Assembly: GCA_013619105.1 (NCBI GenBank)
Contig: JABXKU010000004.1
Coordinates: 40,468 to 104,467 of the forward strand
Length of the DNA: 64,000 nt
Reading direction: 5' to 3'
Source of the DNA: Desulfuromonadales bacterium
Lineage (GTDB): Bacteria; Desulfobacterota; Desulfuromonadia; Desulfuromonadales; Syntrophotaleaceae
Shown: in pieces, positions 17,654-28,395 of the stretch
How the letters are laid out: each line of letters begins with the position of its first letter
How positions within the stretch are numbered: the first letter of the stretch is position 1
The notes under the pieces: model-generated
Told to the model about the DNA's origin: nothing
What the model saw: the letters and a program-made list of their open reading frames with translations, nothing else
Databases searched by the model: none
Position numbers and translations under genes: made by a program

Positions 17654-17845
17654 TGGGCTTCGCAGCCCGCTGACATAAAAGTCCACTCCGATTTAAGGCC
17701 GGCTAAGGCAATAGCTAAGCTACCTTGAACGATGGGTGTCCCTGGAAACGGTGGCGCCTCCCGCATTTGGAAAGGAGTCGACCTGCGAACGCGTATTCCA
17801 AGGTATATGGTGCGCTGGCGGGGTGACCCGTCAGCGCATTTTTTT
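17654..17845 (+). promoter_or_regulatory. Structured 5' leader, candidate riboswitch/attenuator, upstream of TonB-dependent receptor
   Basis: Hairpin GGGCTTCGCAGCCC; closing stem TACCTTG (17720)/CAAGGTA (17799); internal pairings GGTGTC/GGCGCC and CTCC/GGAG; followed by a strong terminator. Confidence 0.55.
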
Positions 17846-17904: not shown

Positions 17905-19875
17905 ATGAACACAAGATTATTTACACCGCTGGTCTGGGTGTGCTTGTTGGCTTTGCTGCCGGCAATGCCAAGTTTTGCAGCTGACAGCGAAGTATTTTCC
18001 CTCGGCGAGGTTATCGTTACCGGTGAACAGCAGGTGGTCAATCTGGCTACTACCGTGACCGAGGTGACTGCCGAGGATATCGAGCAGCGCGGTGCGCGAA
18101 ATGTCGCTGAGGCCTTGGAGCAACTGCCCGGTGTTGATGTGCAGAAGGGCGGCAAAGGTCAGAGCTATGTCAGTATTCGTGGTTTTGAGCAGGGCGATCT
18201 GAAAATATTGATCGACGGCGTGCCGGTCTACGAGCAGTATTTTCGTAGTATCGACCTTGACCAGCTTCCGGTCGATTCCATTGCCAAGATCACCGTGACC
18301 AAGGGAGCTTCTTCGGTACTGTACGGGGCCAACACCATGGGTGGGGTCATCAATATTATCACCAAAAAAGCCGGCTCCAAGCCGAGCGCCACGGTGTCCG
18401 GTGCCTGGGGGGATTACGACACCCAACACTACGGCGTCAGTTTCAGCGCGCCCGCCGGCCCCTTCAATTACCGGCTGGGATACACCTATCGCCATTCCAA
18501 TGGCTGGCGCCTGTCCAGCGACTACGATGAGGACCACTGGGCGGCACAGTACAGTTCCTATACCCAGGATGACGGTGGCGCAATGGATGACACCGGTTAT
18601 CTTATGCACAACTTTAATGCCAAGTTTGGTTTCGAGCCCTCAGACAATACTAAGCTGTACCTGACTCTCGACGTGAACGACAACGAAAAGGGTATCCCCT
18701 CCAGAAACTGGTATTTCGAAGACTGGAAGCAATGGCAGGTGAGTCTGGTCGGGGAGCAGCGCATTAACGATGTTCTGCGGGTCAAGGCCCGGGCCTATTA
18801 TGTCGACCACGAGGATACCCTGCGTGATACCGACTGGACCGATCGGTCCTGGTTCTATAAGTCCGCTTACGATAACTATACCATTGGCGGCGAAGCCCAG
18901 GCGTTTATGGATTTCAGCGACTTAAGTTTCCTGAAGGTCGGGTTCAGCTTCTTGCGGGATAATTGTCAGCAAGAAGAAATGGAGGCTCCCGGAGCTTCCT
19001 GGGAAGATACCGGCGAGTACGAATCTGACACCTACTCGCTCGGTGTGGAAGACGAGATCAAGGTCAATGACTGGTTGGCCTTCACCGTCGGCGCTAGCTA
19101 CGATTACTTTGACCCTCGTGAGTCAGATGATCAGCCAGTGCCCGATAGCATCGGTTCCTTCAACCCCCAGGCCGGGGTGGTCGTAACCCTGTCGGACAGC
19201 ACCTTGCTGCACGGATCCGTCGGTAAAAAGATTCGCTTCCCCCATCTGAAAGAGTTGTACAGTGAGGCAACGGGTGGCAACCCCGACCTTGATCCCCAGG
19301 AGACCATCGCCTATGAAGTCGGTGTGACCCAGCAATTCTCGGATGCCGTCAACGGTTCGGTAGCCATTTTCTACAACGATATCAAGGACCTGATCGTGAA
19401 GGGCGAAGTCGCCGGTTACGATGACGATATTTATTACAATGTAGGTAACGCCAACATCTTCGGTGTCGAAGCCACTCTTGGGGCCGATATCACCGACCGT
19501 TTCTGGGTCGGTATCAACTATACCTACCTCAATACCGAAGACGAAGAGACGAATAAAGAACTGGAAGAGCGGCCCCGCCATCGGGCTAACCTCGACGCCC
19601 GCTATCGGTTCCCCTTCGGTCTCTCGATTTCGAGTCAACTCTCGATTACCGACCGCCAGTTTTATTCTAAGGAAGTCGCTCGCAGAAACTACGAGTGGAC
19701 CGAGAATGATGATTTTGTGTTGCTGAATGCACGGGTTGAGCAGAGTCTTGAAGCCTGGAAAATTACTGGCAAAGCTTTCCTCGAGGTGAACAACATCACC
19801 GACCGTGACTACACCGAAGGCGGTGACCTGATGCCCGGCCGTAACTTCATGGCTGGTTTGAACTTCACTTATTAA
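17905..19875 (+). CDS. TonB-dependent outer membrane receptor
   Basis: 656 aa; signal peptide, TonB-box-like GEVIVTGEQ, plug domain (ALEQLPGVDVQKGGKGQSYVSIRG, KGASSVLYGANTMGGVINIITKK), C-terminal beta strand ending in F-T-Y. Confidence 0.93.
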   Translation: MNTRLFTPLVWVCLLALLPAMPSFAADSEVFSLGEVIVTGEQQVVNLATTVTEVTAEDIEQRGARNVAEALEQLPGVDVQKGGKGQSYVSIRGFEQGDLKILIDGVPVYEQYFRSIDLDQLPVDSIAKITVTKGASSVLYGANTMGGVINIITKKAGSKPSATVSGAWGDYDTQHYGVSFSAPAGPFNYRLGYTYRHSNGWRLSSDYDEDHWAAQYSSYTQDDGGAMDDTGYLMHNFNAKFGFEPSDNTKLYLTLDVNDNEKGIPSRNWYFEDWKQWQVSLVGEQRINDVLRVKARAYYVDHEDTLRDTDWTDRSWFYKSAYDNYTIGGEAQAFMDFSDLSFLKVGFSFLRDNCQQEEMEAPGASWEDTGEYESDTYSLGVEDEIKVNDWLAFTVGASYDYFDPRESDDQPVPDSIGSFNPQAGVVVTLSDSTLLHGSVGKKIRFPHLKELYSEATGGNPDLDPQETIAYEVGVTQQFSDAVNGSVAIFYNDIKDLIVKGEVAGYDDDIYYNVGNANIFGVEATLGADITDRFWVGINYTYLNTEDEETNKELEERPRHRANLDARYRFPFGLSISSQLSITDRQFYSKEVARRNYEWTENDDFVLLNARVEQSLEAWKITGKAFLEVNNITDRDYTEGGDLMPGRNFMAGLNFTY

Positions 19876-20841: not shown

Positions 20842-21601
20842 GTGTCTCTGGAAGGCTCTGGCCAGCATTCGCCTGACCCTATGGTTGCTCGTCTTGCTCA
20901 CTCTGAATCTGTTTGTCGGCAGCTTCTACGCTAAATTCATGCCGGTGTTCGGCGAATTGAACACCAAGCTCTTCCCCGTCTGGCTGATGACGCGCAGTGA
21001 CATCCACAGCTGGTGGATCTTCACTTTATTTGGCCTGCTAGCTCTGCTCTTTGCCAACACCTTGGCCTGTACCCTGGACCGGGTCCATTTTTTGTGGGGC
21101 AAGCGTCAACATCATCGCCGCAGCATCTTTTTTTTACTGCTGGCGCCTTCGATCATGCATTTCTGTTTTTTGTTTATCATCGGAGGACATGCCCTGACCG
21201 AATTTACCGGCAGCAAGGAGCGGCTGCTGGCTGTGGTTGGCGAACAGGTTAGTTTCGATGATCTGCAAGTCACCATGCTGGATCGGCACTACGATTACTG
21301 GCAGGCACCGGCACTTGAGGGGAAAATGCAGCAATGCACCGCAACCCTGGAGCTGAAAAGCGGCTCTAACGTCGAGCAGCGCCCAATCGCCATCCTCGAG
21401 CCCCTCTATTGGCAAGGCTACACCCTGCACCTCGGCATGGCTGGCAAACCCGGTATCGACGAACTGCCCCCGTTACAAATTACCGTTAAAAAGGATCCTG
21501 GGCTGTTGTTGATTTTGATCGGCAACACGGTGCTGTGTCTGCTGATGCTCTGGTACTTTCCGCAAATCCGTAAGATTCGCAACGGAGGACAAAAGCAATG
21601 A
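20835..21601 (+). CDS. ResB/CcsB-like cytochrome c biogenesis protein
   Basis: IKCLWKALASIRLTLWLLVLLTLNLFVGSFY N-terminus, multiple TM and a periplasmic domain; ORF track start 20771 is probably too early, start ATG at 20835. Confidence 0.75.
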
Positions 21602-23403
21602 GACGATTCGCCCAGCTGTTCAGTACGATGCTGGCCTGGCTGCTGCTCTGCAGCACTGCCCTGGCCATGACCAACCATGGCCCGCCTGCCGAACCGGTAC
21701 TGACCATTACCGGCAAGGTGACTAACCCTCTCAAGCTGACCGTTGCCGACCTGGCGCGTTTTCAGTCGGTGGAGATTCAGCTCAACGAGGTCGACCGTGA
21801 TCGTCAATTCCACGGTATCTACCTTCATCAGGCCGTGCCCCTGCGCACCCTACTGGATATGGCTGAAATCACCACGCAGAACCAACCGACTAAAAAGGGC
21901 ATCGAGTTAGCCATTCGGGTGACCGGTGTTTCTGGTAAGCAGGTGGTTCTCTCCTGGGGTGAAATCTATTACAGCAATGCAGCTGAATATGCGATTGCTT
22001 TTGCTGCGGCCCCCGTTAAGCCGATGATGACCGAGGCACGCTGCCTGAAATGCCACGGACCTGAAATCTATCAGTCGGCACTTGATCAGTATGAGCGGCC
22101 AGCACTGATGCCCAAATTGCTGATTCGTGGCGACTTCTATACCGATCGGTGTGTGGAAGGTGTCACCCGTATCGAGGTTATCGACATTTACCCAAAGCTC
22201 AAGAGCGATCGGTCACTCAAGCTTGAATCGAGCGAATTTCAAGTCACAGGTTTGGTCACCAAGGAGCTAAAGCTCTCCAGTCTCAAAGACTATCCTCAAA
22301 TGTCCATGTGGAAGAAGGTCGTGGGCCTGCATATGGGTTATCACGGTCTGCATCTTTATAAGGGGGTGTCCCTGGCTAAGGTGCTGGAAGCAGCCGGAGT
22401 CGGCGATGATCTGACCAAGGCGGTGATGATCTCCGCGCCGGATGGCTACCGGGCGCTCTTCTCCTTTGGCGAGCTGTTTCAGTCTTTTAAAGGGCGGCGC
22501 ATCATGTTGGCCGAAAGTGTTGATGGAAAGCCCCTTAAAGGGCAGCGCGGTGGAAAATACCGGATTATCGTTCCCGAAGAACTGGTTGATGATCGGGACG
22601 TATTGGCTGTCGATCGCATCGAAATTATCGACTTAAAACCTAAGGCGAAAATTTCGATTATTGGCGTCGGCCCTGGCGATACCGATCTTCTCACCCTGGA
22701 GGCCCTTAGCGCCCTGGCTCGTGCCGATGTGCTGGTGGCCCCAGAGGATATTGCCAAACGCTTTGCCCCTTACCTCGGCAACAAGCCGAACCTGTTTGAC
22801 CCGTTGCAGCTGATTAAGCACATCTACCGCAAGGCCCATCCGGACCTTAGCGCAGAGGAGTTGTCGGAGCAGGTCACGGTTGAACGGGACGCCGGTGTAC
22901 AGAAGATTCGTCAGGCTCTCGATGAAGGCAAGAACGTGGCCTTTCTCGATTGGGGCGATTCCCTCATCTACGGCAGCTCTCGCTGGATTCGTCATTACTT
23001 CAGCGACGATGAACTGGAGACGGTGGCGGCCCTGAGTTCCTTTAATGTCGCCAATGCCATGATTCAGCGCGATATCGGTGCCGGGGGATCTATTGTGATC
23101 ACCATGCCAAGCGGACTGAAAGAACATCCCCAGTTGCTTGAAGCGGTGGCCAAGAGCGGTGATACCCTGGCTATCTTTATGGGTTTGAAAGAATTTCAGG
23201 AACTGAAACCCCAATTCGATAACTACTATGCCGCCGATACCCCGGTGGCTCTGGTCTTCAGTGCCGGTGTGGCCGGCAGCGAACGGCTGGTGCGCACCAC
23301 CTTGGAGCAGGCAGTGGAAGAGCTGATGGCCGATTCGGAAAAATTCCTCGGTCTGATCTACATGGGACCGCGTCTCAATCAGCGTTCCAGCGAATGTCAG
23401 TAA
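21598..23403 (+). CDS. Exported fusion: two SufI/oxidoreductase-molybdopterin-like domains (one with CXXCH) plus tetrapyrrole methylase-like domain
   Basis: Signal peptide MRRFAQLFSTMLAWLLLCSTALA; repeated VTGxVTxxLKLxxLxxY-type domains; CLKCH; C-terminal ISIIGVGPGDTDLLTLEALSALARADVLVAPE typical of tetrapyrrole methylases. Confidence 0.75.
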   Translation: MRRFAQLFSTMLAWLLLCSTALAMTNHGPPAEPVLTITGKVTNPLKLTVADLARFQSVEIQLNEVDRDRQFHGIYLHQAVPLRTLLDMAEITTQNQPTKKGIELAIRVTGVSGKQVVLSWGEIYYSNAAEYAIAFAAAPVKPMMTEARCLKCHGPEIYQSALDQYERPALMPKLLIRGDFYTDRCVEGVTRIEVIDIYPKLKSDRSLKLESSEFQVTGLVTKELKLSSLKDYPQMSMWKKVVGLHMGYHGLHLYKGVSLAKVLEAAGVGDDLTKAVMISAPDGYRALFSFGELFQSFKGRRIMLAESVDGKPLKGQRGGKYRIIVPEELVDDRDVLAVDRIEIIDLKPKAKISIIGVGPGDTDLLTLEALSALARADVLVAPEDIAKRFAPYLGNKPNLFDPLQLIKHIYRKAHPDLSAEELSEQVTVERDAGVQKIRQALDEGKNVAFLDWGDSLIYGSSRWIRHYFSDDELETVAALSSFNVANAMIQRDIGAGGSIVITMPSGLKEHPQLLEAVAKSGDTLAIFMGLKEFQELKPQFDNYYAADTPVALVFSAGVAGSERLVRTTLEQAVEELMADSEKFLGLIYMGPRLNQRSSECQ

Positions 23404-23509: not shown

Positions 23510-23527
23510 GAAGGGAAAGAGCTTGTG

Positions 23528-24361
23528 ATGACACCTTGGTGGTATATGCGAAGCTTATTCTGTCTATTGGCCCTATGTCTCATCGTTTCAGGCCAGGCGT
23601 CGGCTGAGTCGGTAGTTACGGTGACAGGGCTGGTCAAGCATCACCAGCGTCTGACGCTGGAGGATCTGGCCAACTATCGATGTGAGGCGGTGCGTAGCAC
23701 AGAGGTCCGCAGTGATGGCACCTTTCAGGGTGTTTTTGCCTAATAGGGGGTGCCGCTACAGCACGCCTTGCCTATGACGCAGATAAAGGGAGCGGTTAAC
23801 GTGGCCCAGGTTGCCATGAGCGGCCTGTATGGCCCGGCTGTAGCCGGTTTGGTGTCGATACCGATCATGCTGGCCATTGCCGCTGGTATCAACGCCACGA
23901 TCCTTACAGGGGCGCGGGTTTCCTTCGCTATGGGTGAGGACGGAGTCTTCTGGGCTCCCCTTAAGAGGGTTCATGCATCTTACGGTACTCCGGCTTGCGC
24001 CGTGCTTTGTCAGGCGTTGTTGGCCTGCTTTCTGGTCGGGATTGGCACCTTCAACCAGTTGCTCGGTTACGTGGTCTTCGTCATGCTGCTTTCCAGTATC
24101 GCCAGCGTTTTGGCATTGTTTGTTTTACGTTGGCGGTGTCCGGAACTTGATCGCCCTTATCGTACCTGGGGCTATCCGCTGGTGCCGCTACTCTTTGGCG
24201 CCGCCTATTTGTGGATTGCGGTACAGATCGGCTGGGCCAATCCCCGGACATCTCTGCTGGGCATCTTGATTGCTTTGACCAGTTTGCCCTTTTATCTTTG
24301 CAGCCGAAGGAAGGTCCAAATTAAGGCTCTTCTGGCCGATTTTTTGAAATGGAGTCTGTAG
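23528..24361 (+). pseudogene. Chimeric pseudogene: SufI-like N-terminal domain joined in frame, through TAA TAG, to an APC-family permease C-terminal fragment
   Basis: GTFQGVFA**GVPLQHALPMTQIKG continues the domain in one frame; then AVNVAQVAMSGLYGPAVAGLVSIPIMLAIAAGINATILTGARVSFAMGEDG (APC permease) lacking its N-terminal TM segments. Confidence 0.7.
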
Positions 24362-24363
24362 GA

Positions 24364-25371
24364 ATGGATGTGCTGAAAATAGGCGCTTGGATGCTGCTCC
24401 TGTTGTTGTGGTTGGCAGGCCCCGTTAGTGCCCAATCGACTGAGGTGTTGTGGTGGGAGTTGGAAAACCCCGACCGATATGTCAATGGCTACAACGATCC
24501 CGATCGGGATATCTGGGAGGTGCGCAACGAGGCAGAGTTGCTGCGCCGGCGTCTCGGTCAGCCCAAGCGTTTGCTGCTGCACCAAGGCTCCTTTCCTGTT
24601 GCAGACGGGCAGGATGAGCGGAGCGCTGGTAAGCTGCGGCAGGTTCGCGCCTGTCTCATAGGGCCGGACGGCAGTCGCCAGGCTGTCCCGTTGCAGAAGG
24701 TTGGTGAGAGCATTGCCGTTGAAGTGCCGGAGGCAGACGCGGCCAGCGGGATCTATCTGCTCGGTGGTCATTTTGCTGCCGGTGCGCAGGATGTCGATGG
24801 AGACGGAGTGAGCGAACAGGTTCACTACTACGGCAAATTTCTGCTTCGGCATGGCAGCAATGACGTAAGCAACGGTGGTGAGCGGCAGGTATTTATTCAT
24901 GCTGAGGACATGCCTTTAGAGATCGGTCCTATTCAATCGAGCCGTTACAGCGGTACCATCCAGATCGCTCATCGCCCCCATACGATGGCAGTATTCTATC
25001 GGAGCCAGCCCTTGGCAGGTGCCGAGGTGACCATTTTCACCGAGCGTGGTTGGCAAAAGACTCTGTTAACCGATGATGAGGGTCGATTTGTGGTCGTGCC
25101 GACAGAGAGTCGTAGCGCTGAGCGCAACTGCGAACACTACCTCTATGTGGTGCAGTATCACGACCGGCAGCGGGGCGAATATCACTGTGCCAGTATGCCG
25201 ATGATTATAGATCCACCTTGGCCCGAGTGGTCTCATTATAATAGTACCTTCACTATCTGGATCTTGGTTGGCACCCTATTCGCCGCTCTGTTGGCTCTGT
25301 TGTTGATCAGTCGTCAGCGCCGCCGCAAACAGGCGCGCCTAGCCCGTTTTCGGGGGGCATCATGCGCGTAA
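24364..25371 (+). CDS. Exported/membrane-anchored DUF4198-like protein
   Basis: Signal peptide, MAVFYRSQPLAGAEVTIFTERGWQKTLLTDDEGRFVV domain, C-terminal TM helix. Confidence 0.6.
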   Translation: MDVLKIGAWMLLLLLWLAGPVSAQSTEVLWWELENPDRYVNGYNDPDRDIWEVRNEAELLRRRLGQPKRLLLHQGSFPVADGQDERSAGKLRQVRACLIGPDGSRQAVPLQKVGESIAVEVPEADAASGIYLLGGHFAAGAQDVDGDGVSEQVHYYGKFLLRHGSNDVSNGGERQVFIHAEDMPLEIGPIQSSRYSGTIQIAHRPHTMAVFYRSQPLAGAEVTIFTERGWQKTLLTDDEGRFVVVPTESRSAERNCEHYLYVVQYHDRQRGEYHCASMPMIIDPPWPEWSHYNSTFTIWILVGTLFAALLALLLISRQRRRKQARLARFRGASCA

Positions 25372-26324
25372 CTCGGTTGCGCTGGCTGGTGCTGGCCGTT
25401 TGTTTTGTCCTGCTGACCTTTGGCGGCCGGATGGGGGTCCACCTTGGCGCCTATCTGCCGACCTTTGCCTGCTATTTCACCGGTTTCGACAGTTATGGCG
25501 GTGCCTGTTTTTTGGCCCCCCTTCAGTTCGCTCTGGCCGCCGGCAGCGTAGACGGACTGCTCAAAGCTCTGCTTTATGTGGTGATCGCGATCCTGTTGAT
25601 CATTCCTCTTGGTAGTGCCTGGTGTGGCTGGGTCTGCCCCTTTGCCTTTGTCCAGGATGTCCTCGATCTAATACGCCGTAAACTCGGTCTCGGTTATCTG
25701 CGTTTTCCCGAGGGTCTGCGAGAAGGTTTGCGTCCGGCCAAGTGGGTTTTTCTGTTTATCATGCTGCTGCTGCCCTTGTGGGCCGCCTTTCCGATTCTTG
25801 TGCCATCAGTGGCCCGTCACCTGAATATCCCCTTCTGCGAGCTCTGTCCGGTACGTTACATCATGCCGATGTTGACCGGTCGGGCGAGCTACATGGGGGT
25901 GGATCTGGAGAATGCCACCACCATTATTTTGAGCGGTCTGGGAGTGTTTTTCGCCATTTTGACTCTGGTGTTGAGCCTGTTCAAACGGAGATTTTGGTGT
26001 GCGTATTGCCCGATGGTGCTGGTCCTGTCTTTTTTTCGCCGAATCAGCCTGCCAAAACTGAAAAAGGATGTGCAGAAGTGCACCCGTTGCGAGATCTGCT
26101 ACAACGTCTGCCCGATGGATGTCGAGCAAGTATTTAAGGAGCGGGAAAAGGAGAATGTGACTTTTCCCGACTGCGTACTCTGTCTGGCCTGCATCGAACA
26201 CTGTCCCGAAGATGACGCTCTTCGGGCCACCTGGGCCGGAAAAACCTTTTTTCGTTCGACCCGCAAGGGTTTTTCTCGGCGTCGAAAGATCGGTGTTGAT
26301 CGTCATAAGAACAAGGATAATTAG
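25362..26324 (+). CDS. NapH-like membrane 4Fe-4S ferredoxin
   Basis: WCGWVCPFAFVQDVLD, CAYCPM, CTRCEICYNVCPMDV, CVLCLACIEHCPEDDAL. Confidence 0.85.
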   Translation: MRVTRLRWLVLAVCFVLLTFGGRMGVHLGAYLPTFACYFTGFDSYGGACFLAPLQFALAAGSVDGLLKALLYVVIAILLIIPLGSAWCGWVCPFAFVQDVLDLIRRKLGLGYLRFPEGLREGLRPAKWVFLFIMLLLPLWAAFPILVPSVARHLNIPFCELCPVRYIMPMLTGRASYMGVDLENATTIILSGLGVFFAILTLVLSLFKRRFWCAYCPMVLVLSFFRRISLPKLKKDVQKCTRCEICYNVCPMDVEQVFKEREKENVTFPDCVLCLACIEHCPEDDALRATWAGKTFFRSTRKGFSRRRKIGVDRHKNKDN

Positions 26325-26326
26325 CT

Positions 26327-27604
26327 ATGGGAAAACGTAAACAGCGCCTGCTACGCGCTCTTGGCCGTTCGGCGGAGGGTGTATTGCGGGGTTTGGAAGA
26401 GGCTGCCGACCGACCGAAGCAGCTCGATTACTTTATCGAGGTGATGCGCGCCGCCTATGTTGACGATTGTTTGGCCGAGCGACTGGAGCTAAGTGAGCCT
26501 CGGCCCAAGGTGGTCGGTATCTATTGTGTCATGGCCCCCGAGGAGCTGGTCTACGCCGCCGGTGCGATTCCCCTGCGCCTGTGCGGTGGCAGTCACGAGG
26601 CTTCCTGTGCCGGCGACGAACTGGCGCCACGGGATGCCTGCCCGGTGGTCAAATCCGCTCTCGGCAGCACCGCTCTCGGTGCGCCCTCCCTCTATGAATT
26701 GTGCGATGTGGTGGTGGTGCCCACCACCTGTGACGCCAAACGAAAAATGGGTGAGGAGTTAGCGCAGCATACCGAGGTCTGGGTTTTGGACGTCCCCCAT
26801 GTTAAGGAGAGCGAGGGGGCCAGACGCCAGTGGCTGGAAGAATTGCACGGTTTCAAGAGAGACTTGGAGCGATTGACCGGTAATCGTATCAAGCGGCGCG
26901 CCCTTAAGGAGGCCATCGCCATGCTCGGTCGCGCCCAACACCAGGCGCGCCGTCTCTATCAACTGCGTCAGGCTCCGGTCCCTGTGGTGCGTGGCAGCGA
27001 AGCAGCCCTGGCCCTGCACGCCTTTGCCTTTGACCGGGCCGATAGTTGGACCGAGGCCATGACCCGCTTAAACGATGAGTTGGAAGAGCGTACTCGCCAT
27101 CAACAGCCCTCTCAGGGCGCACAACGTCCTCGCCTTATGCTGGCCGGGGCTCCGTCAATTTTTCCTAACTGGAAACTACCGAACCTCATTGAAGAGATGG
27201 GTGGCGCTCTGGTAACTGACGAGTCCTGTGTGGGCGACCGCTATCTGTACGATCCGGTTGGGGCGGTGGAAAACACCATGGAGGACATGATGGTGGCCCT
27301 GGGCTCTCGGTATCTGATGCCCTGTACCTGTCCGTCTTTTGCGCCCAATGACGATCGCCTGTTCCGATTGCGCCAGGCGGTGGAAGATTTTCAACTAGAT
27401 GGCGTGCTTTACCTCGTCCTCAAGGGTTGCGTCATCTACGATTTTGAACTGCAGCGGGTAGAAAAGCTGATGCGAGAATTGGGCCTTCCAGTGCTGCGCA
27501 TCGAAACAGACTACAACCCGGAAGACGTGGAGCAGTTGCGTACCCGAGTTGAGGCTTTTATTGAAATGATTCAGGAAAATACACAACTGGAGGTCGGCGC
27601 ATGA
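26327..27604 (+). CDS. 2-hydroxyacyl-CoA dehydratase D-family / double-cubane cluster protein-like
   Basis: VVGIYCVMAPEELVYAAGAIPLRLCGG, VVPTTCDAKRKMGE, LKGCVIYDFELQRVEK cysteine motifs; followed by its activase. Confidence 0.8.
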   Translation: MGKRKQRLLRALGRSAEGVLRGLEEAADRPKQLDYFIEVMRAAYVDDCLAERLELSEPRPKVVGIYCVMAPEELVYAAGAIPLRLCGGSHEASCAGDELAPRDACPVVKSALGSTALGAPSLYELCDVVVVPTTCDAKRKMGEELAQHTEVWVLDVPHVKESEGARRQWLEELHGFKRDLERLTGNRIKRRALKEAIAMLGRAQHQARRLYQLRQAPVPVVRGSEAALALHAFAFDRADSWTEAMTRLNDELEERTRHQQPSQGAQRPRLMLAGAPSIFPNWKLPNLIEEMGGALVTDESCVGDRYLYDPVGAVENTMEDMMVALGSRYLMPCTCPSFAPNDDRLFRLRQAVEDFQLDGVLYLVLKGCVIYDFELQRVEKLMRELGLPVLRIETDYNPEDVEQLRTRVEAFIEMIQENTQLEVGA

Positions 27605-28395
27605 GGGTTTTTGCCGGGATCGATGCCGGTTCCACCTATCTTAAAGCAGCGTTGGTAGACGACAAGCGCCAGTTGCTCGGTGTCAAGACGGCGCCAACGG
27701 GAATCGATGCTCGGGAAACGGCCAAGGAAGTGCTCGACGCTCTCTGCCTTCAGGTCGGGGTCGAGCCAATGGCCCTGGCGGCCATCACCGCCACCGGTTA
27801 CAGTCGGCGCCAGATCGATCTGGCTGGAGACAACGTCACCGAGATCAAGGCCCATGCTGCCGGAGCCCGCTGGGCTCTCGGAGCCGATAGTGAGGTACGG
27901 ACTCTGATTGACGTCGGTGGACAGGACAGTAAGGTGATTGTTTTTGATGATAACGGAGCGGTGAAAAATTTTGTCATGAACGACAAGTGCGCTGCCGGCA
28001 CCGGCCGTTTTCTTGAAGCCCTGGCCCGGGTGCTGGATGTGTCGGTGAAAGAAATCGGCCCTATGGCCCTGCAGTCGAAACTGCCCTGTGAGATTAATAG
28101 CATGTGCGTGGTGTTTGCCGAATCGGAGGTAATCTCTCTGTTGGCCCGTCGCCATGATCCCGTCGATATCGTCGCCGGTATCCATGTCTCCATGGCCAAG
28201 AGAATCGCAGTTATGGCTCGCAAGGCGGGGTTGAGCGGCGAAGTACTGCTCACGGGCGGCGGCGGGCTCAATCCCGGCCTGGTGGCGGCTTTTGAGGATG
28301 AACTGTTGTGTGATGTGCACATCGCTGAGCATCCTCAGCTTAACGGTGCCATCGGCGCGGCCCTGCTCGCGGGCCGTCTGGCTGCGGCGGCTTGA
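27601..28395 (+). CDS. Acyl-CoA dehydratase activase (BadF/BadG/HgdC family ATPase)
   Basis: GIDAGSTYLKAALVDD, IDVGGQDSKVI, MNDKCAAGTGRFLE; 4-nt overlap with upstream gene. Confidence 0.9.
   Translation: MRVFAGIDAGSTYLKAALVDDKRQLLGVKTAPTGIDARETAKEVLDALCLQVGVEPMALAAITATGYSRRQIDLAGDNVTEIKAHAAGARWALGADSEVRTLIDVGGQDSKVIVFDDNGAVKNFVMNDKCAAGTGRFLEALARVLDVSVKEIGPMALQSKLPCEINSMCVVFAESEVISLLARRHDPVDIVAGIHVSMAKRIAVMARKAGLSGEVLLTGGGGLNPGLVAAFEDELLCDVHIAEHPQLNGAIGAALLAGRLAAAA

Follow-up and report, generated by a model that had tools for sequence, protein, structure and literature searches.

What is a tetrapyrrole methylase, a kind of enzyme that is by rule cytoplasmic, doing behind a signal peptide? 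The question is raised by a protein of 601 amino acids (aa) encoded at positions 21598-23403 of a 64,000-nucleotide (nt) stretch from a Desulfuromonadales bacterium (assembly GCA_013619105.1, contig JABXKU010000004.1), the whole of which is called the window hereafter. An earlier, sequence-only reading had described this protein as an export signal, two related SufI-like domains, a c-type haem motif and a methylase fold in one chain, adjoining a putative haem-attachment pair. Judging from the open reading frame (ORF) and its relatives, the fused protein is a genuine and intact product of a single gene, and export of its methylase-fold domain is strongly supported by the predicted signal peptides of its relatives; moreover, this protein represents a minor part of a broader pattern that comprises an exported methylase family and a riboswitch. 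As an explanation we tentatively favour, at somewhat less than an even chance, that the protein handles the ligand in the periplasm, as partner of a TonB-dependent metal or cofactor uptake system, which in the window genome probably serves tungsten or molybdenum.

The fused protein and its domains

The ORF is unbroken over 601 codons, and its ATG overlaps the stop of the preceding gene. Orthologues at full length and without stops were found in eight genomes belonging to the same family as the window (G001, G003, G004, G005, G006, G010, G011 and G013), with identities of 54-93%. The G004 orthologue is a chimera of both tandem paralogues; at locus L008 (1838-3625), the 5' part of paralogue 1, with its CXXCH, is joined to the 3' methylase part of paralogue 2, a chimera that apparently arose by recombination between tandem copies.

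Residues 1-24 form the hydrophobic segment MRRFAQLFSTMLAWLLLCSTALA-M (12-residue Kyte-Doolittle mean of 2.1), in agreement with the export signal predicted earlier, and no membrane-like segment was detected by hydropathy in the remainder of the protein (best 19-residue mean of 1.35). The relatedness of the two N-terminal domains was confirmed by profile comparison (probability 99.6%), residues 30-205 being an additional PF00174-like copy; however, the SufI or cupredoxin identity proposed for them was rejected, since Pfam gives the sulfite-oxidase (SUOX) family PF00174 and no cupredoxin family. The c-type haem motif CLKCH occupies residues 149-153, inside SUOX domain 1, and an alignment showed CXXCH to be kept in most fused relatives, so that a conserved motif stands behind a predicted signal peptide, as expected of an exported c-type cytochrome. 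Apart from those of CXXCH, no cysteine is conserved in either SUOX domain in the alignment of relatives, and neither copy has one that might ligate molybdenum.

The C-terminal methylase fold was equally evident to Pfam, PF00590 matching residues 351-572 over model positions 1-211/212 with 130.3 bits (cut-off 27.8; E 1e-37). The top Foldseek matches were precorrin-4 C11-methyltransferases (3ndc, 4e16 and 1cbf; 3ndc E 1e-16), and target TM scores of 0.79-0.82 indicate a complete domain. The 601-aa protein reached 72.6 of the 259.65 bits of the CobM/CbiF equivalog model. An AlphaFold2 model built on a 55-sequence alignment, which superseded a weak 12-sequence run (predicted local distance difference test, pLDDT, of 78), was confident along the full length, with a pLDDT of 91 and a predicted template modelling score of 0.85. 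Furthermore, ratios of nonsynonymous to synonymous substitution (dN/dS) of 0.09-0.15 between the window and close relatives indicate purifying selection on the methylase domain; the SUOX domains gave values about as low, and only the signal peptide was higher.

The SAM (S-adenosylmethionine) pocket was inspected in 78 exported domains. The motifs GDP and PG-S, whose residues we take to be SAM-contacting, are kept family-wide (G453 in 77 domains, D454 in 75, P455 in 72, P477 in 63 and G478 in 68), while the window protein deviates slightly, with S455 (GDS) and A477-A478 (VAALSS). PALSS is present in the sister copies of L006 and G003, the latter of which also has GDP. The exported family shows FNAANA as an additional motif, and some of its subclades have lost GPGD, with GPAGP in its place.

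A family of exported methylases

Searches with the domain profile covered 244 genomes of the class and 395 of the phylum, several of them metagenome assemblies, and the survey was confined to this one phylum. At a threshold of E 1e-35, 42 of the 395 genomes had a match, about one in ten. A score gap sets the exported group off from ordinary CbiF/CbiL-type enzymes, which score at most 109 bits in the class sample. The N-terminus was judged in 73 family proteins from 62 loci, and in 41 cytosolic controls, signal peptides being called by hydropathy rather than by SignalP: a hydrophobic, signal-like N-terminus was present in 71 of the 73 and in none of the controls. The two remaining proteins are a split gene (L141) and one of unclear start (L161).

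The architectures comprise SUOX-SUOX-tetrapyrrole methylase (TPM), TPM alone, TPM-TPM and DUF4198-TPM. DUF4198-methylase fusions and exported tandem methylases were observed at L155 (2416-3975), L157, L162, L164, L165 and L166. In other families of the order the methylase stands alone and bears its own predicted signal peptide, a circumstance that supports export of the methylase domain itself, as the sequence-only reading had supposed. A tree made by a quick search, with long branches, placed all 78 exported domains on one side of one branch (SH-aLRT branch support of 71), which weakly supports, and is consistent with but does not prove, a single origin of the exported domains as a whole; the SUOX fusions group together with a support of 99. 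None of eight family members scanned against NCBIfam reached a full-length equivalog cut-off, and the tandem protein of L162 passed the short CbiE domain model only, by summing two copies (96.7 of 92.9 bits). Sizeable as it is in the phylum, the family has no fitting curated full-length NCBIfam family. Plasmids were also searched for exported relatives from other phyla, with ordinary cob genes as the result.

Riboswitches

The operon of the window begins with a Mo/W-cofactor (molybdenum/tungsten) riboswitch aptamer, RF01055, located 112 nt 5' of the receptor start and followed by an intrinsic terminator (Table 1). Both elements are conserved in G003 and L006, where RF01055 occupies the same operon position (69.2 and 67.9 bits, respectively), and RF01055 stands ahead of the operon in the three g1 genomes in which it was seen. 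Since the P3 stem is missing in the alignment, and P3-less RF01055 aptamers associate with tungsten-cofactor genes (PMC2408646), the window aptamer is of the Tuco (tungsten) type. The other three RF01055 copies of the genome precede two AOR-type genes and one moeA-like gene, named by eye from their sequences and after passages of the Pelobacter carbinolicus paper (Aklujkar, 2012; PMC3543383). A further copy lies near the end of G004 contig C167; alignment gave no support to the idea that it precedes the broken-off receptor.

In G413 a cobalamin riboswitch lies directly 5' of the genes for a TonB receptor and a TPM-TPM protein; together with the Mo/W switch of the window, this means that two different cofactor switches head such operons. 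Cobalamin riboswitches were also found near L112 and L151. Elsewhere in the genome of the window, a cobalamin riboswitch has a separate receptor gene of its own, and the window receptor was therefore rejected as a B12 receptor. Both switch classes meet in one cluster at L068 (G000:C33, 2123-6569), where a Mo/W riboswitch, an AOR-type gene and a MoaD/ThiS-like gene precede a second switch, of the cobalamin class, and a TonB receptor; similar arrangements occur in G003 (L071) and G006 (L185).

Gene neighbourhoods

A TonB receptor is present in 51 of the 62 loci; from the 114 plug domains counted in ten of these genomes (about 40 Mb), a receptor within 7 kb would be expected by chance, as a matter of arithmetic, in about 4% of places. 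ExbB genes occur in 18 loci, and up to 19 have a CcsA-like gene. In some loci, FecCD-type ATP-binding cassette (ABC) genes are accompanied by FmdE (PF02663) and by 'heavy-metal chelation' genes of DUF364/DUF4213 (PF04016 among the neighbours), and others have CbiM-like or DUF4198 (PF10670) genes; all of these point to metals. At L109, L111, L115 and L146 such FecCD-type, FmdE and DUF364/DUF4213 genes adjoin SUOX-TPM genes, possibly as a metal transporter cluster. Next to exported methylases, L029 (9827-10585), L113 (2691-3425) and L163 (8354-9037) encode FmdE-like proteins that are likewise exported and have a CXXCH close to the N-terminus; these are perhaps a separate haem carrier for stand-alone methylases.

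Proposed role and alternative explanations

In the explanation that we favour, scarcity of the tungsten (or molybdenum) cofactor would allow the operon to be read, presuming a switch that is off with cofactor; the receptor would carry a metal complex into the periplasm, where the cleft of the methylase fold, presumably inherited from a methyltransferase acting on corrin rings, may hold the complex or just the organic portion of it. Electrons, perhaps supplied by the CcsA/ResB-like membrane pair, would then pass through a c-type haem of the SUOX domain, so that the metal is reduced and released. Different lineages might use this module for cobalt, corrinoids or other metals, as cobalamin riboswitches and CbiM, DUF4198 and FmdE/DUF364 neighbours suggest. 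An uptake partner is supported by the intact orthologues, the contrast between family and control N-termini, the frequency of TonB receptors, the RF01055 copies at the g1 operon and before the AOR-type and moeA-like genes, the cobalamin riboswitch of G413 and the cobalamin-switched receptor elsewhere, the metal-linked neighbours PF10670, PF02663 and PF04016, purifying selection on the methylase domain and the full-length structural model.

Several observations weigh against it. No RF01055 was detected at the corresponding operon of g2 and g3 relatives, and control by tungsten may have been rewired locally; the receptor is most like haem receptors, though below cut-off; the window operon has no tungstate permease; the electron-transfer step is drawn solely from CXXCH, which some fused members lack; and the neighbour-gene counts are non-independent, the loci being related by descent.

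A possible though doubtful alternative is that a branch of corrin methyltransferases was exported with a working SAM/adenosyl pocket and is active in the periplasm. It would be either a genuine methyltransferase using SAM that is itself exported, or a protein binding metal cofactors, adenosylated or nucleotide-bearing, that enter by TonB uptake, with specificity for W/Mo, Co or another metal set per lineage. Because GDP and PG-S are kept, a nucleoside-like ligand or real catalysis is conceivable; the tetrapyrrole binding without catalysis suggested by the first reading is possible too.

Somewhat unlikely is the scavenging of haem or corrinoids, in which the receptor would import the ring, the methylase fold would bind it in the periplasm and any metal control would be secondary. 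The nearest NCBIfam model of the receptor is indeed TonB-hemin (185.4 of 316.85 bits, no substrate subfamily cut-off being reached), the methylase is nearest to the corrin-ring enzymes CobM/CbiF, cobalamin riboswitches occur at or near G413, L112 and L151, and periplasmic chelatases such as CbiK-P offer a possible parallel; however, the switch in the window is of the Mo/W class, and the cobalamin-switched receptor sits elsewhere in the genome.

We consider it unlikely that the protein is a working periplasmic methyltransferase whose substrate is a tetrapyrrole or some other compound that has been imported, and which uses SAM brought across the inner membrane, possibly through an APC-family permease. 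The conserved SAM-pocket motifs and strong purifying selection agree with this, as does an APC permease gene in 35 of the 62 loci, often overlapping the TPM gene (L030, L113, L116, L108 and L110). Nevertheless, the genome of G003, a single contig, yielded no APC homologue and the permease gene of the window is truncated, yet the methylase is conserved, so that the permease was rejected as an essential SAM supplier in the window genome; its closest models are L-type amino-acid transporters and their kin, with every score below cut-off, and GPGD is lost in some subclades. In addition, we know of no SAM pool in the periplasm.

A part in the biosynthesis of a novel porphyrin, as proposed in the passages on the P. 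carbinolicus locus (Aklujkar, 2012; PMC3543383), would as a rule imply a cytoplasmic enzyme and is very improbable, given predicted signal peptides on both fused and stand-alone members and a periplasmic-type CXXCH with SUOX domains in the same chain. Finally, the chance of an artefact is negligible: a frameshift, merged genes or an internal cytoplasmic start, named beforehand as refuters, were all tested and all fail, since the ORF is uninterrupted, the identical fusion recurs in many separately assembled genomes, stand-alone methylases bear signal peptides, and a TTG codon near residue 337 encodes a leucine that is not conserved among orthologues; no evidence in favour was found.

Other features of the window

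A CcsA/ResB-like pair does lie directly upstream of the fused gene, as first described (Table 1), but a role as a dedicated haem-attachment system is not supported. Its presence does not co-occur with CXXCH: fused CXXCH proteins lack the pair nearby at L109, L111, L114, L115, L138 and L140, and the pair accompanies fused proteins without CXXCH at L139 and L144. Furthermore, the ResB-like protein has no Pfam match (PF05140 included), and a canonical ResB is encoded elsewhere in the genome, on contig C167. For the CcsA-like protein the profiles disagree: PF01578 is passed, and 43.6 of the 187.6 bits required by TIGR03144 are reached. The operon contains no usual periplasmic binding protein.

Downstream (23525-24361), a deletion fused the first ~80 codons of paralogue 2 to the last ~200 codons of an APC permease; L006 has intact copies of the two genes, which G003 has lost in another way. 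Further on, 24349-28395 encodes a signal-peptide protein, a NapH-like ferredoxin, an anaerobic reductase of the double-cubane type (NF040772, 352.9 bits, cut-off 350) and an activase, and a similar gene set adjoins the SUOX-TPM locus in G010 (L036).

Table 1. Positions of the operon elements and downstream remnants in the window.
Feature	Position	Strand	Basis or remark
RF01055 aptamer (Mo/W-cofactor riboswitch) lacking the P3 arm	17674..17793	+	63.2 bits, gathering 36, E 7e-15
Intrinsic terminator between aptamer and first gene, 14-pair stem then T run	17809..17840	+	formed in predicted fold
TonB-dependent outer-membrane receptor	17905..19875	+	PF00593 150 bits, PF07715 102 bits
CcsA-like membrane protein, divergent WWD-like segment	19957..20841	+	PF01578 36.1 bits (cut-off 29.9)
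ResB-like membrane protein, short, 255 aa	20834..21601	+	relatives adjoin CcsA-like gene in other loci
SUOX-SUOX(CXXCH)-TP_methylase protein, predicted exported	21598..23403	+	601 aa
Signal peptide, residues 1-24 (predicted)	21598..21669	+	hydropathy; AlphaFold2 helix 2-26
SUOX-fold domain 1 with CLKCH at 22042-22056	21670..22212	+	profile match to domain 2, CXXCH alignment
SUOX-fold domain 2	22213..22638	+	PF00174 50.1 bits (cut-off 24), E 3e-13, residues 213-345
TP_methylase domain, CobM/CbiF-like	22645..23400	+	PF00590; Foldseek best 3ndc/4e16/1cbf
Remnant of second SUOX-TPM paralogue (CXXCH-less)	23525..23764	+	two in-frame stops; matches start of L006 8504-10168
Remnant of APC-family permease, C-terminal part	23765..24361	+	92% identity to L006 permease residues 258-454

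Comparison with known systems

The window protein resembles the precorrin-4 C11-methyltransferases CobM/CbiF in the whole domain fold and in the SAM-pocket motifs, but differs in its predicted export, in scoring below the equivalog cut-off, in the FNAANA motif and in lying outside a cob/cbi cluster. With the sulfite-oxidase family (PF00174) it shares the fold of both N-terminal domains; however, it lacks the conserved cysteine that ligates the molybdenum cofactor and carries a CXXCH in domain 1. CbiK-P of Desulfovibrio, a periplasmic cobaltochelatase, is likewise an exported, redeployed enzyme of a tetrapyrrole pathway, with a chelatase fold rather than a methylase fold. TonB loci for metals or cobalamin (BtuB, FecCD ABC, CbiM-DUF4198) have in common with the loci described here the receptor, ExbBD/TonB in many cases and a riboswitch in some, the difference being that the periplasmic part is here a methylase-fold protein. 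We know of no TonB receptor established for tungsten or molybdenum, and an operon combining a tungsten-type switch with a TonB receptor makes outer-membrane W/Mo transport testable.

Our literature search returned nothing on a tetrapyrrole methylase with signal peptide and periplasm, nor on FmdE with TonB. The nearest precedent is the Pcar_0191/Pcar_0192 locus of P. carbinolicus, probably the same locus as the window operon, to which two sentences were given, describing a tetrapyrrole methyltransferase doubling as a c-type cytochrome, with the TonB channel Pcar_0195 and 'molybdopterin-binding' proteins, and suspecting metal transport (Aklujkar, 2012; PMC3543383). The passages on that locus do not discuss export of the methylase, its wider distribution, the stand-alone forms or the Mo/W switch on the operon; as far as we found, export, family size, stand-alone forms and this switch are what the present analysis adds.
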